Shown here: positions 44,971 to 61,985 of the stretch, piece by piece
Layout of the letters: every line of letters starts with the position of its first letter
Numbering within the stretch: position 1 is the first letter of the stretch
From: Bacillus sp. ISL-41
GTDB lineage: Bacteria; Bacillota; Bacilli; Bacillales; Cytobacillaceae
DNA length: 64,000 nucleotides
Assembly: GCF_018613235.1 (NCBI RefSeq)
Contig: NZ_JAGGQP010000023.1
Location: 186,001-250,000 of the forward strand
Direction of reading: 5' to 3'
Program-made: the position numbers and the translations under genes
Notes under the pieces: generated by a model
What the model saw: the letters and a program-made list of their open reading frames with translations, nothing else
Told to the model about the DNA's origin: nothing
The model's database searches: none

Positions 44971-44994
44971 ATTTGAAAAATTTACGTTATTACC

Positions 44995-45630
44995 CGATTG
45001 GCGCCCTGAAAATCCAGAAACAGGAAAAAGAGGTCACCAATAAGCCCGATTGGTGCCCTGAAAATCCAAAAACCGGAAAAAGAGGTCACCAATGAAGCCG
45101 ATTGGTGCCCTAAAAATCCAGAAACCGGAAAAAGAGGTCACCAATGGAGCCGATTGGTGCCCTAAAAATCCAGAAACAGGAAAAAGAGGTCACCAATAAG
45201 CCCGATTGGTGCCCTGGAAATCCAGAAACAGGAAAAAGAGGTCGCCAATGGAGCCGATTGGTGCCCTAAAAATCCAGAAACAGGAAAAAGAGGTCACCAA
45301 TAAGCCCGATTGGTGCCCTGGAAATCCAGAAACAGGAAAAAGAGGTCGCCAATAGAGCCGATTGGTGCCCAGGAAATCCAGAAACAGGAAAAAGAGGTCA
45401 CCAATAAGCCCGATTGGTGCCCTGAAAATCCAGAAACAGGAAAAAGAGGTCACCAATAAGCCCGATTGGTGACCCGGAAATCCAGAAACAGGAAAAAGAG
45501 GTCACCAATGAAGCCGATTGGTGACCTGAAAATCCAGAAACAGGAAAAAGAGGTCGCCAATGTGCCCGATTGGTGTCCTAAAAATCCAAAAACCGGAAAA
45601 AGAGGTCACCAATAAAGGCGATCGGCGTCC
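44995..45630. repeat. Tandem array of twelve 52-bp units (array 1)
   Basis: Units start at 44995 and every 52 bases to 45567, with a partial unit from 45619. Each reads GATTGGTGCCC, a 25-base interior including AATCCAGAAACAGG, then GGTCACCAAT and a short variable spacer. ATTGGTG and CACCAAT can pair, and CCTG can pair with CAGG inside. Units differ at scattered bases, so this is not a CRISPR array with unique spacers. Period 52 is not a multiple of 3. Confidence 0.9.
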
Positions 45631-48937: not shown

Positions 48938-49078
48938 ATTTAGTGTACGTCGTTAAAAAATTAGCCTAATGAAAGCAATATCAGCCAGCTTCCATTTTTT
49001 AAAAGATATCTAGCATAATAGGGAATTAAAGGTAAAATAGAGTTATATAGAAAGAGCGTGTTAAAAGGGGGGATGAAC

Positions 49079-51136
49079 ATGATTCCAGCAAAAATGGATG
49101 CCATCACAATCACCGCTGTTCAAGAAAAAGGGATAGATTCTGTCGTGGATTGGTTTGAGCTGCATAAGCAACCCTTTTATGCACTAGGCTGGTTTTACCT
49201 TCGCAATCAACAGCAAACGGAAGAGCTATTTTACCGGTCGATCATGAAAGTGCACAAGGAATTGCCTCGATATAGAAATGATACTTCATTTCCATTATGG
49301 GTTGCTTCGATTTTCATTGATATTTGCCGGGAGCTTTCGGACGATGAAGTCACGCTGGCATCAGATGAAGATGCTTCACATCATGATTTATTTAATGCAC
49401 TTGATCAACTTAAGGATGCGGAAAAGGAAGCGATGGCCCTTACCTATGGCACAGGATTCTCCCAGGAGGAAGCTGCACATATTTTACGAGTTTCAGTGGA
49501 TAAATTAAAAGAGTTATTGTTCTCCGGGACTCAGTCGGTCAGAAAACAATTGTACGAGACAACTTTTAACGGCTGTAAGGAATATCAGAAGAACTACATT
49601 GATTATCTGGAAAAAAGGATGGAGCGGCCGGAAAAAATAGAGTTCGAGATCCATCTTTATGAATGCCGGGAATGTCAGGAGGATTTGGCTGCCTTTCAGG
49701 ATGTCACCCTTATGTTACATCATGCTGAGTGGATGAATGATTTGACAGTGCCGGAGAATTTGATTGCGAATATCAAAGAACGGTTTGCAAAAAAAGTGCA
49801 GCAGAGGCAGCAGAGATTTAAGAAGCTTAAAAAAGTTGCACTGGTCTTTGCAAGTGTTTGTGCCATCGTGATCGGGATTAGTTTCTTTACTGGCGTTTTT
49901 GCAAATGTCTACTATACTTGGACCGAAGAGGATGAGCAATTACGCACCTTCCTGCAGCGCAACCTTGGCCAAAGGGTGAACCTGGAAGCAGAAAGCGATG
50001 GCGTGAAAATCAAAATTAAAGGCGTGGTTGCTGATGATGCCCAAACACTTGTTTTTTATGAGATAGAAGATACCAAGGGCGACAATAAATATCTTATGAG
50101 CTATGAAGATGGCCTTTATGTTGAGAACGAATATCAAATCATGAGAAATGAAACGTATCCGAGATATTCTTTTCCGGACCTTGATGCCGAGATCAATAAA
50201 CGAGATAAGAATGTGTTCTACGGAAAGGTCAGTCTGAAGCCGTTAGAAGAAGATGAGGCGGTAATCAAACTGAAAATCACACAAGTCCAGGAATTGGTAG
50301 CCGGAAATAATGGAGCAGGTATGGAAGTGGGCTTTAGGGCCAATGGTTATAAATCAGGCGAGTGGAAATTCGAAATTCCGGCAACTAAGCAGCCTTCCAC
50401 AGAAATAGCTTTAACAGAACAAACAGTGATCGAGGGAATTCCCATTCGGTTAGAGAAGTTAACGATCGCGCCAACAGCAACTATTTTGCAATATGGCATC
50501 CGAGAAGTACAGCTAAATAAAAGGATCGATTTTCTTAACTTGGGTGATCTCGAAGTGAATGGTAAAAAAGTGAAAGTTGACGAATATGGCAGTGTCTTTT
50601 CACACACTCAGCAAGATATGGACTGGCGTACTTATCAAACGCAATTTGATTCGTTTTTTGGTGAGAAACCTGAAGAGCTGAAAATTCATTTTGAAACTGC
50701 CTATTTTACATTTGCAGACCATAAAAGCGTCGAATTGGATGTAGACCAACCACTTCCACAGACCTTTGAATATGCAGGAAGCACAATCAGTATTGATGAA
50801 ATTGAAGTTGGACAGCCGACAAGGGTTGTGATAAGCAATCATGAAGTTGCCGATCGGGCCTTCGAAGCTCTTCACCTGAATATTGTCGATGAAAATGAAC
50901 ATGAACCGATTTCAACTGGGATGCAACAAGAAAGCGTACTCGTTGATAAAAATGGTGTTATTTACGATCCATATTCAGATCCGGTGGATTATGAAAAATT
51001 AGAACAGCCCCGGCATTTTGTAACAGTTCAAACCATAATGATAGACGGAGTAAACGTGGTTCCTAAGAGGCTTGATATTTATGGATATAATTCAATGAGG
51101 TATTTGGGTGATGTTATGAAGATCACACTGAAATGA
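49079..51136 (+). CDS. Sigma factor-like / zinc-finger anti-sigma fusion with DUF4179-type ectodomain
   Basis: 685 residues. Residues ~15-165 resemble an ECF sigma factor, with region-2-like helices ('QQTEELFYRSIMKVHKELPRYRNDTSFPLWVASIFIDICR') and a region-4-like helix-turn-helix ('EAMALTYGTGFSQEEAAHIL'). A zinc-finger anti-sigma motif follows: Cys166 upstream, then His192-x3-Cys196-x2-Cys199. One membrane helix (about 253-275) leads to an extracytoplasmic half with DUF4179/DUF5643-like beta domains. Normally sigma and anti-sigma are separate proteins; here they are one chain. ATG 49079 is seven bases after AAAAGGGG. Confidence 0.75.
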   Translation: MIPAKMDAITITAVQEKGIDSVVDWFELHKQPFYALGWFYLRNQQQTEELFYRSIMKVHKELPRYRNDTSFPLWVASIFIDICRELSDDEVTLASDEDASHHDLFNALDQLKDAEKEAMALTYGTGFSQEEAAHILRVSVDKLKELLFSGTQSVRKQLYETTFNGCKEYQKNYIDYLEKRMERPEKIEFEIHLYECRECQEDLAAFQDVTLMLHHAEWMNDLTVPENLIANIKERFAKKVQQRQQRFKKLKKVALVFASVCAIVIGISFFTGVFANVYYTWTEEDEQLRTFLQRNLGQRVNLEAESDGVKIKIKGVVADDAQTLVFYEIEDTKGDNKYLMSYEDGLYVENEYQIMRNETYPRYSFPDLDAEINKRDKNVFYGKVSLKPLEEDEAVIKLKITQVQELVAGNNGAGMEVGFRANGYKSGEWKFEIPATKQPSTEIALTEQTVIEGIPIRLEKLTIAPTATILQYGIREVQLNKRIDFLNLGDLEVNGKKVKVDEYGSVFSHTQQDMDWRTYQTQFDSFFGEKPEELKIHFETAYFTFADHKSVELDVDQPLPQTFEYAGSTISIDEIEVGQPTRVVISNHEVADRAFEALHLNIVDENEHEPISTGMQQESVLVDKNGVIYDPYSDPVDYEKLEQPRHFVTVQTIMIDGVNVVPKRLDIYGYNSMRYLGDVMKITLK

Positions 51137-56433: not shown

Positions 56434-56470
56434 GAAGCATAGGGTTGGTGAACCCTATGCTTCATTTTTA
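56434..56470 (+). terminator. Intrinsic terminator (GCATAGGG type)
   Basis: GAAGCATAGGG-TTGGTGAA-CCCTATGCTTC then ATTTTTATT. Near-identical stem to 18045-18074. Confidence 0.85.
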
Positions 56471-56477
56471 TTAAAGA

Positions 56478-56553
56478 AGATTAGAGACGCACCCTAGGCT
56501 TCCAATCTTATTCAAAAAGCTTAGAGACGCTCCTGAGCTTCCAATCTTATTCA
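56478..56553. repeat. Two direct copies of a 38-bp sequence
   Basis: TTAGAGACGC-CC(T)-AGCTTCCAATCTTATTCA occurs twice in tandem. The second copy includes the stop codon of the ytoQ-type gene, so the duplication captured the gene end. Confidence 0.65.
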
Positions 56554-56987
56554 TAAATATAACTGATGACATCCAGTGCCTGGTCAACGGTTTCTACCGT
56601 AACATTCGCTTTATTGGATAGTTCTTTTAAGGGGTGAATCAAGGATTCTGGTCTAACAATAATAGTAGGTTTGTTCATCGTGATGGCGGCGCTGGCGTCC
56701 ATCGCAGTGTTCCATTGTTTGTACTTTTCGCCGAACAGGGCAATGACAATATCAGATTTTTGCATTAAAACCTGTGTCCTGAAGTTGTTGATATCAGAGG
56801 CAGCATCGTCCTTATACACATTGCCAGGCTGTTGCCCGAGAATATCCTCGCCAATATTGTCCGAGCGATCATGGTTCGTCTGTGGTCCGACGAATACCAA
56901 AGGCAGGTTCTTTTCCTGCGCCTTCTTTGCCAGCTGATCCCGCCAATCATCGTGAATCTGCCCAGCTAAATAAACCGTTAATTCCAT
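56547..56987 (-). CDS. ytoQ: YtoQ family protein
   Basis: 146 residues, the size of B. subtilis YtoQ. 'VYLAGQIHDDWRDQLA', 'FVGPQTNHDRSDNIGEDILG' and 'SDIVIALFGEKYKQWNTAMDA' place it in the nucleoside 2-deoxyribosyltransferase-like fold. Reaction unproven. Start 56987 follows GGAGGGTGTTACG; the in-frame ATG 57002 overlaps that site. Confidence 0.88.
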   Translation of the reverse strand: MELTVYLAGQIHDDWRDQLAKKAQEKNLPLVFVGPQTNHDRSDNIGEDILGQQPGNVYKDDAASDINNFRTQVLMQKSDIVIALFGEKYKQWNTAMDASAAITMNKPTIIVRPESLIHPLKELSNKANVTVETVDQALDVISYIYE

Positions 56988-57112
56988 CGTAACACCCTCC
57001 ATTTGAATAGATTCTCATTCAATCATATAAAACTTTACTGATAATTCAAAGGAATTAGGATGCGGGGATGATCGCAATGGAATATGGTGAAGAGTGAATA
57101 CTAAAGAAACCG

Positions 57113-57528
57113 TTTATGTGCCCTAACTAGGAGGAATTGCGGGTTCACGGTCACATAAATGAGTTTTATGTGCCCCAACTCGGAGGAATTGCGGGTTCAC
57201 GGTCACATAAATGAGTTTTATGTGCCCCAACTCGGAGGAATTGCGAGTTCACGGTCACATAAACAGGATTTATGTGCCCCAACTCGGAGGAATTACGGGT
57301 TCACGGTCACATAAACAGGTTTTATGTGACCCAACTCGAAGAAATTAAGAGTTCACGGTCACATAAACAGGATTTATGTACCCCAACCCGGAGGAATTAC
57401 GAGTTCACGGTCACATAAACAGGATTTATGTGCCCCAACTCGAAGAAATTAAGAGTTCACGGTCACATAAATGAGTTTTATGTGCCCCAACTCGGAGGAA
57501 TTGCGAGTTCACGGTCACATAAACGAGA
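57113..57528. repeat. Tandem array of eight 52-bp units (array 2)
   Basis: Units start at 57113 and every 52 bases. Each reads TTTATGTGCCCC, AACTCGGAGGAATT-C-GTTCAC, then GGTCACATAAA and a 7-base spacer. TTTATGTG pairs with CACATAAA. Sequence is unrelated to array 1, but the period and the GTGCCC-N25-GGTCAC frame are the same. Not coding and not a CRISPR. Confidence 0.9.
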
Positions 57529-57640: not shown

Positions 57641-57763
57641 TTCTCCTAAAGGGGAGTAGCTTTTACAACAGAGTCGTCATTTCGGAGGTTTGATATCTCC
57701 CGGCTTTGTTGGCAACGATGACGTTGTTAGCAAGACCTTTACCGTTTTGGTAAAGGTCTTTTT
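57641..57763 (+). promoter_or_regulatory. yybP-ykoY manganese riboswitch with first terminator
   Basis: CTCCTAAAGGGGAGTAGC, the later GAGTCGTCATTTCGG and CCGGCTTTGTTGGCAACGATGAC segments are the conserved elements of the yybP-ykoY aptamer, which senses Mn2+. The expression platform is AGACCTTTACC-GTTTT-GGTAAAGGTCT plus T run (57733-57763). Mn2+ binding is expected to prevent terminator formation and turn on the exporter gene. Confidence 0.93.
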
Positions 57764-58052: not shown

Positions 58053-58820
58053 TTGGAACTATCGATTTTATTTGAATACGGTTGGGTATTGCTGCTATTG
58101 ATCGCTCTTGAGGGCCTGCTGGCAGCGGATAATGCATTGGTATTGGCAATCATGGTAAAGCATCTTCCCGAAGAAGAGCGCAAAAAAGCACTATTTTATG
58201 GTTTGGCAGGAGCATTTGTTTTCCGATTTGCTTCGTTATTCATCATTTCGTTTTTGGTCGATGTCTGGCAGGTGCAGGCAATAGGAGCCCTTTACCTGTT
58301 ATTCATCGCGATTAACCATATCGTCAGAAAGCTTTATTTTAAAAAGGTGGAAGACAACAACAATGCTGCTGAGAAAAAGAAATCAGGCTTCTGGGCTACT
58401 GTTTTCAAGGTAGAGCTTGCAGATATCGCGTTCGCGGTTGATTCGATTCTGGCGGCTGTTGCCCTGGCGATGACTCTTCCGAACACCAATCTTCCGACTA
58501 TTGGCGGAATGGATGGCGGCAAGTTCCTTGTCATTTTTGCCGGAGGGTTAATCGGTTTGATTATCATGCGTTTCGCGGCCAACCTCTTTGTAAAGCTGCT
58601 TCATTCAAGACCGGGTCTCGAAATCGCTGCTTTTGCGATCGTCGGCTGGGTAGGCGTCAAGCTGGCGGTGTTAACATTGGGACACCCAGATATCGGAGTG
58701 TTATCCTACGATTTTGCTCATTCCAAGGAATGGAAGCTGTTCTTTTACAGCGTATTAATTACGATAGCAGCAGCCGGCTGGTTCCTGACGAAGGAAAAGA
58801 ATCCTCAGGAAGCTGTGTGA
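58053..58820 (+). CDS. ykoY: TerC-family manganese exporter (YkoY-like)
   Basis: 255 residues, seven or eight membrane helices. The family metal-site motifs are visible: 'ALEGLLAADNALVLAIM' in helix 1-2 and 'VELADIAFAVDSILAAVA' in the second repeat, each with acidic residues in the membrane. TerC/YkoY proteins export Mn2+ or metalate secreted enzymes in Bacillus. TTG start at 58053 after AAAGGGGGATAA. Control by the upstream Mn riboswitch supports the assignment. Confidence 0.9.
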   Translation: MELSILFEYGWVLLLLIALEGLLAADNALVLAIMVKHLPEEERKKALFYGLAGAFVFRFASLFIISFLVDVWQVQAIGALYLLFIAINHIVRKLYFKKVEDNNNAAEKKKSGFWATVFKVELADIAFAVDSILAAVALAMTLPNTNLPTIGGMDGGKFLVIFAGGLIGLIIMRFAANLFVKLLHSRPGLEIAAFAIVGWVGVKLAVLTLGHPDIGVLSYDFAHSKEWKLFFYSVLITIAAAGWFLTKEKNPQEAV

Positions 58821-61803: not shown

Positions 61804-61880
61804 GTGGAACACCTGTTTATTGAAAGATTACTTGGTGCCCATACTCTGTAAAAGTCTCATCAGCCAGAAATAAATCTCGG

Positions 61881-61985
61881 GCCAACCGTTAAATAAATCG
61901 TCATAACCGTATAAATTTACGAGCCAACCGTTAAATAAATCGTCACAACCGTTAAAAAAACGTCGCCAACCGTTAAATATGCTCC
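61881..61985. repeat. CCAACCGTTAAATAAATCGTC repeat array
   Basis: GCCAACCGTTAAAT recurs at 61881, 61923 and 61965, a 42-bp period. Each period holds two related 21-base halves (CCAACCGTTAAATAAATCGT and CATAACCGTATAAATTTACG or variant). A small, diverged array between the TSUP and ABC genes. The remaining intergenic sequence up to 62247 shows only the terminator at 62089. Confidence 0.65.

Follow-up and report, generated by a model that had tools for sequence, protein, structure and literature searches.

Tandem repeats with a constant unit of 52 nt and a variable sequence have been described in Bacillus, and why some Firmicutes carry dozens of such exactly 52-base satellites without a common sequence is an open question (Subirana and Messeguer, 2021, PMC8161180). 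The same study proposes small RNAs or nucleoid proteins as their role and notes that short sequences and their reverse are often found within one repeat. Its list includes selenatarsenatis, which has repeats in common with boroniphilus and subterraneus; selenatarsenatis and boroniphilus are placed in Mesobacillus in the NCBI taxonomy, which is the probable genus of the genome analyzed here. REP elements, as described in an excerpt of the relevant paper, have conserved stem mismatches and are recognized strand-specifically as single-stranded DNA (PMC8266576). For the IS200/IS605 family, an excerpt of another report states that orientation recapitulates the direction of replication and that excision and insertion favour the lagging-strand template (PMC5371812).

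The DNA analyzed is a stretch of 64,000 nucleotides from Bacillus sp. ISL-41 (the window), which contains two arrays of this kind (Table 1). A search for GTGCCC-N{20,30}-GGTCAC gave 12 matches in the window, six in each array, compared to 0.03 expected from 100 dinucleotide shuffles. A reading made from the sequence alone had claimed that array 2 has the geometry of array 1 with a different sequence, and that both place GTGCCC and GGTCAC 25 bases apart; TRF and the frame search confirmed the former, and the gap was exactly 25 bases in all 12 matches. The frame common to both arrays is GTGNCC-N25-GGTCAC with a period of 52. That reading also held that the arrays share no overall sequence, which is true outside the boxes only, as the boxes are common. 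It correctly saw pairing arms, but the ATTG/CAAT and TTTAT/ATAAA given for them are too short: the arms are ATTGGTG/CACCAAT in array 1, as read from the sequence, and TTTATGTG/CACATAAA in array 2. Further, the boxes do not merely lie inside the arms but belong to the hairpin themselves, with one C.T mismatch (GTG-C-CC / GG-T-CAC). No known RNA family was found in the window at the gathering threshold of Rfam, and a search of plasmid sequences found no similar DNA. The probable yybP-ykoY riboswitch beside array 2 scored 25.7 bits (E 7.8e-5), which is below the curated gathering score of 45, and it is not part of the array.

Table 1. Positions of the two arrays, the first hairpin unit of array 2 and the neighbouring features in the window.
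Feature	Position	Strand	Description
Array 1	44993..45615	+	12 copies (TRF 12.0), period 52; boxes and orientation as in array 2
ytoQ (YtoQ family)	56547..57002	-	NCBIfam TIGR03646, Pfam PF11071; array 2 lies directly upstream
Array 2	57113..57524	+	52-bp hairpin unit repeated in tandem, 7.9 copies; GTGCCC precedes GGTCAC on the + strand; TRF, period 52, 90% matches
Array 2, hairpin unit 1	57113..57159	+	outer arms TTTATGTG/CACATAAA
Array 2, unit 1, GTGCCC box	57118-57123	+	frame match 57118-57154
Array 2, unit 1, GGTCAC box	57149-57154	+	frame match 57118-57154
Array 2, unit 1, mismatch	57121, 57151	+	C 57121 opposite T 57151
Probable yybP-ykoY manganese riboswitch	57645..57728	+	Rfam RF00080; between array 2 and ykoY
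ykoY (TerC/YkoY membrane protein)	58053..58820	+	NCBIfam TIGR03716, Pfam PF03741; far side of array 2

Arrays 1 and 2 fit the published constant-size 52-nt class. As in that class, the period is 51-53, most arrays have 4-10 copies, many families of different sequence are found per genome, and short characteristic sequences are shared across the genome, here GTGNCC and GGTCAC. The own genome (4.62 Mb) has 61 forward and 48 reverse matches to the frame, i.e., 109 strand hits at 21 or more places, while the reversed-pattern control has 0; a perfect palindrome is counted on both strands in such totals. The list of matches shows arrays that are equal in length and different in sequence from one another. 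The frame is thus not confined to the two arrays of the window, and the outcome that the sequence-only reading had named as refuting did not arise, although some arrays of 52-53 bp with other boxes do exist. Among the 61 genomes searched, the 21 of this genus (own genome included) have at least one match in 20 cases; the genome that lacks it has a completeness of 66%, and the full genome G008 contains one match. The other 40 genomes have 0 to 8 strand hits each. While the repeat sequences are called species-specific in the published work (PMC8161180), one frame is found here across a genus.

At the array loci of six relatives, 69 arrays have a period of about 52 or multiples of it, and the TRF consensus contains the exact frame in 45 of these. 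The remaining 24, read by eye, are mostly near variants of the frame, and a few have other hairpins (e.g., L231:8273-8788, L202:1652-1822 and L221:800-899). Two 53-bp arrays from two genomes (L035:2177-2646 and L231:8273-8788) have a hairpin of the GTACCC.../...GGGTAC type, which is a second box family with a near-identical period. In the draft of the own genome, contigs C37, C38 and C41 at their starts and C25 at its end break within frame units or at most about 60 bases from them (L042, L043, L045 and L035), so the number and length of arrays in drafts are probably underestimated.

The locus upstream of ytoQ was read by eye in eight genomes, and the arrays are kept, refilled, decayed or absent depending on the species. 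Related filling is found in the own genome (8 units), G019 (3 units) and G016 (about 6 units), while G009 has 3 units with a different filling and GGTAAC replacing GGTCAC. About one and a half decayed units are left in G005 and G006, and there are none in the stretch read in G007 and G017. Gene order beside ytoQ varies between the species, and no clean element ends are seen at this, the one locus compared. The YtoQ protein encoded beside array 2 has its best named match in Bacillus sp. ISL-37 (96%); Mesobacillus subterraneus reaches 87%, a level that other genera reach as well.

The framed 52-bp unit in this genus is an imperfect inverted repeat. To describe it we used 75 distinct consensus units, merged where near-identical, from the 90 arrays with exact oriented units in seven genomes (the window, L029-L047 and 77 loci of six relatives). 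The unit consists of variable but mostly pairing outer arms, GTG, the C.T mismatch, CC/GG, a variable interior and a spacer of about five bases or more. The main arm classes are ATTG-GTG/CAC-CAAT and variants of (C/T)(A/T)T-GTG/CAC-A(T/A)A. In the outer five columns, 66% of the positions are Watson-Crick in register, compared to 25-33% when slid by 1-3 bases, and position -1/37 is Watson-Crick in 95% of the distinct arrays. Standard pairs make up 96, 75, 95 and 59% at -1/37, -2/38, -3/39 and -4/40, where the shuffles reach at most 68, 64, 84 and 53%, whereas pairing at -5/41 in the 75 consensus units is not above the shuffles. The arm sequences thus covary, although the count is inflated by the shared ancestry of a few arm classes, and template switching between the arms could also maintain their matching. 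The claim that these repeats form one class, in which the frame stays fixed and the arms and the filling can change, is therefore supported, by the 20 of 21 genomes, by the covarying arms and by the fillings at ytoQ.

The mismatch is kept in 275 of 317 units and is replaced by a pair in 23 (A.T in 18, C.G in 5), where the 317 are those within 1.3 kb of oriented units and arrays without any oriented unit are excluded. Over all loci used, A opposite T occurs 58 times, with each palindrome counted twice. The spacing is also strict. The gap between the boxes is exactly 25 bases in 287 of 302 box pairs (24 in 10 and 26 in 2; range considered 23-28), and single-step unit spacing is 52 in 150 of 158 cases, 51 in 6 and 53 in 2. 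Between adjacent units there are on average 5.3 substitutions (144 pairs), and the box positions are mostly conserved also in adjacent units without the exact frame (145 units, at least 8 of 12 box letters).

Strict 52-bp spacing with conserved short boxes, which persist in these inexact neighbours, would be expected of a nucleoid-organizing protein that binds double-stranded DNA and polymerizes along units five helical turns apart. The arrays are also mostly intergenic, with median distances to the nearest ORF call of 185 and 152 bases and 4 of 71 within an ORF call. This explanation is close to that of Subirana and Messeguer, and we find it somewhat unlikely. A reader of double-stranded DNA needs neither pairing arms of changing sequence nor a kept mismatch, and the strict replication polarity described below would require an extra assumption. 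A more specific idea of helical phase would place half-sites at distances of 31 and 21 bp, or three and two turns, and a count of the bases in the GTG frame agrees with it; we do not rely on it, as the coagulans repeat 1_52_139 (PMC8161180) and L129, by eye, place their arms at other distances.

The orientation of the arrays can be compared to the direction of replication in six single-contig relatives (G009, G011, G016, G017, G018 and G019), in each of which dnaA was located and fork direction was taken from dnaA (ori) to the midpoint. Of 80 array loci fetched, 9 with perfect palindromes only (GTGACC...GGTCAC) were left out, which gives 71 orientable arrays; two single matches outside the fetch, G009:3786335 and G017:718479, both point along the fork. 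GTGCCC comes first along fork movement in all 71 arrays (201 units, 0 minority units). The GTGCCC-first strand is the lagging-strand template. The arrays form 39 clusters by homology of flanking DNA, which splits some orthologous loci such as both arrays beside ytoQ (L190 and L223), or 36-38 clusters by neighbouring proteins at 50-70% identity, and all clusters agree with the fork. Outside the arrays the box hexamers are unpolarized (GTGCCC/GGGCAC 43/46 and GGTCAC/GTGACC 70/67 in leading-strand sense over 561,583 bases), and the polarity therefore does not come from box composition. Composition bias would not predict it either, as leading-strand composition should favour G over C on the GTGCCC strand. 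Strict polarity is observed in one genus.

Transcription does not explain this orientation. Relative to the array, the upstream and downstream neighbours are ++ in 33 cases, +- in 19, -+ in 11 and -- in 8, so that 52 of 71 upstream and 44 of 71 downstream neighbours are sense. One of the eight double-antisense arrays, L169, is doubtful, since its left ORF call overlaps the array and has no Pfam match, and the homologous L192 is sense there; the other seven fall in three flank clusters. These are the two parts of L191, with GntR-FCD and NERD genes outside and a Mutator-family transposase between; L223, between a GGDEF/CBS gene and ytoQ; and the homologous L174, L195, L211 and L219, with a cell-wall hydrolase gene on one side and no Pfam match on the other (two loci tested). 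Orientation set by transcription was therefore rejected. The same data bear on the suggestion that the arrays are templates of small RNAs or of RNA hairpins that regulate or terminate neighbouring transcripts. The units fold well as RNA (mean z -3.2 compared to mononucleotide shuffles), and according to an excerpt of one report 52-nt arrays are transcribed in B. coagulans (PMC8625621). Even so, we regard an RNA role as improbable, because orientation tracks replication and not genes, with the eight double-antisense arrays and the 11 between divergent genes as examples. Because the polarity is kept whichever way the genes point, the replication fork, rather than RNA and transcription, becomes the place to look for an explanation in this genus.

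At L191:4144-6078 in G019, the gene of the Mutator-family (IS256-type) transposase splits one array, and both parts have the same orientation; an insertion sequence seems to have landed inside the array. At L194 a 392-aa ORF similarly lies between its two arrays.

The point at which polarity switches was compared to a presumed dif site, which we identified by its sequence pattern, with up to three mismatches allowed, and which was unique in the seven genomes tested. In the six relatives its position corresponds to about 52-53% of the ori distance. With the boundary set at this putative dif, 70 of 71 arrays agree, the exception being G011:2465761, which lies between the midpoint and dif. The own genome is a draft, and its arrays were compared to the local GC skew; L033, which lacks oriented units, was set aside. 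Of the 19 stretches that have such units, 18 agree with the skew and L037 does not. L037 is located 57 kb away from the presumed dif site, and in four relatives its neighbour gene has an orthologue placed at 49.5-51.9% of the ori distance. Polarity that switched close to the midpoint, and not at dif, would account for both L037 and G011:2465761, although these are two cases and the skew at L037 is against it. Guide signals for a segregation motor should switch at dif. The ori-to-ter polarity across the whole chromosome would suit polar signals of this kind, read by an FtsK/SpoIIIE-type or SMC-type motor, but we consider that role very unlikely. Both exceptions sit before the putative dif as seen from the origin, close to the midpoint or beyond it, and yet show the orientation of the other side of the terminus, though there are only two of them; moreover, the full genome G008 has a single frame match, and the boxes outside arrays are unpolarized.

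The history of the arrays was approached from their edges. Of 91 arrays, 68 have four units or more, and in these decay is about equal at both ends, as the first unit is the worse one in 32 and the last in 36. Growth at one end was therefore rejected, and the equal decay argues for ordinary homogenization within the array rather than copying from one end. It also agrees with an origin as neutral satellites, in which slippage builds the array, quasipalindrome template switching matches the arms, and orientation-dependent instability of the hairpin purges the other orientation. The turnover in place at ytoQ points the same way, and so do DNA energies, by which the hairpin of the complementary strand is more stable in 64 of 75 units, leaving the less stable one on the lagging-strand template. 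Neutrality nevertheless appears quite unlikely to us: the same two boxes in 36-39 locus clusters are hard to obtain by drift, template switching would mend the mismatch that most units keep, and the lagging-template strand has C where leading-strand composition would be expected to favour G.

The sequence-only reading had suggested that a common protein may copy or recognize the repeats, and had proposed to look for a linked nuclease or recombinase gene. No such gene recurs at the 41 representative loci, where no flank protein family is found at more than 7, and the two largest groups (7 and 6 loci) gave no identification by profile search. As a whole, the interpretation in that reading is partly supported.

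Like REP elements and BIMEs with TnpA-REP (RAYT), as far as an excerpt of the source describes them, the units are imperfect palindromes with a conserved stem mismatch, as in the E. coli type, and often stand in consecutive tandem copies (PMC8266576). They differ in having a fixed period, and GTAG is found in 0 of 75 distinct arrays within 10 bases 5' of the frame and in 1 of 75 anywhere in 57 bases. The Y1 transposase (PF01797) has 0 matches in the array-rich G006, G015 and G016 (67, 39 and 65 frame strand hits), with a positive E. coli control, and is thus not a required factor in these three genomes; it is present in other genomes of the genus, with two matches in the own genome. Since three genomes have no Y1 match and GTAG is absent 5', we do not file the elements as REPs. 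As described for IS200/IS605 in the excerpt of that source (PMC5371812), the arrays follow the direction of replication, but they are tandem non-coding 52-bp units without a transposase gene. CRISPR arrays are likewise intergenic, and their repeats are regularly spaced, in part palindromic and combined with variable stretches. In contrast to CRISPR, the stretch between the boxes is common to the copies of an array instead of a unique spacer, and there is neither a linked recurring gene family nor growth at one end.

Arms that pair although their sequence changes, together with the kept mismatch, suggest recognition of the single strand in its folded form. On this analysis, the best explanation, which we offer tentatively and hold at somewhat less than an even chance, is replication-coupled recognition of a folded single-stranded DNA hairpin, REP-like but not RAYT-dependent. 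The unit would be read as a folded hairpin exposed on one strand at the replication fork, and the kept mismatch may be the feature that discriminates the strands, as in REP elements and IS200/IS605 ends. Such recognition, or else counter-selection of the reverse orientation, would hold the period, the polarity and the distance between the boxes constant; within an array, slippage together with unequal exchange of sister copies might keep the units alike. Because the more stable hairpin forms on the complementary strand in most units, the polarity could result from avoiding lagging-template hairpins instead of using them, and selective loss of the opposite orientation is thus a live alternative. 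A further elaboration of hairpin recognition, which we consider doubtful, is that a host factor reads the lagging-template hairpin via its mismatch without RAYT or Y1; it would fix length and polarity while arms and interior drift, and its box specificity would co-evolve to give lineage-specific boxes. The kept mismatch in a covarying hairpin offers a concrete biochemical substrate for finding a binding protein, and the near-universal fork orientation of the arrays is a first handle on the role of 52-base repeats.

The main text of PMC8161180 does not contain 'palindrom', 'hairpin' or 'orientation', and its uses of 'strand' (three) and 'replication' (one) are unrelated to polarity. As far as that text goes, replication polarity and the kept mismatch are additions. 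In the limited collection of literature searched, we found no report of replication polarity, a unit hairpin or turnover at the ytoQ locus for 52-nt repeats.

Polarity as a general property across genera was not supported by two other types of array. In the B. coagulans-like genome G250 (3,552,226 bp), which carries a published 52-nt family, mismatch orientation, scored as purine.A on one strand and T.C on the other, was mixed relative to GC skew at the five places scored. Three of these, at 114, 261 and 305 kb, are among the matches listed (10 of 83 per strand), and those at 1.81 and 1.99 Mb come from a sample of 20 x 20 kb. TTTGCG-type arrays were scored by which strand has the C.A mismatch, and this strand matched the local skew at 2 of 4 places in M. 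campisalis and at 1 of 2 in Bacillus sp. FJAT-27251. Most copies of the frame in Sutcliffiella horikoshii are perfect palindromes, which fall outside polarity scoring.

Two short tandem arrays lie near array 2 in the window, at 56452-56557 (period 39) and at 61870-61979 (period 42 with a 21-bp half unit); the latter may be a member of the published 20-21-nt class. Between arrays 1 and 2, positions 49058-51136 encode a 692-aa protein with ECF sigma-factor models at the N-terminus followed by anti-sigma/DUF4179 and DUF5643 models. This apparent fusion of sigma to anti-sigma factor has near full-length matches in 17 of the 18 relatives searched, all except G003.
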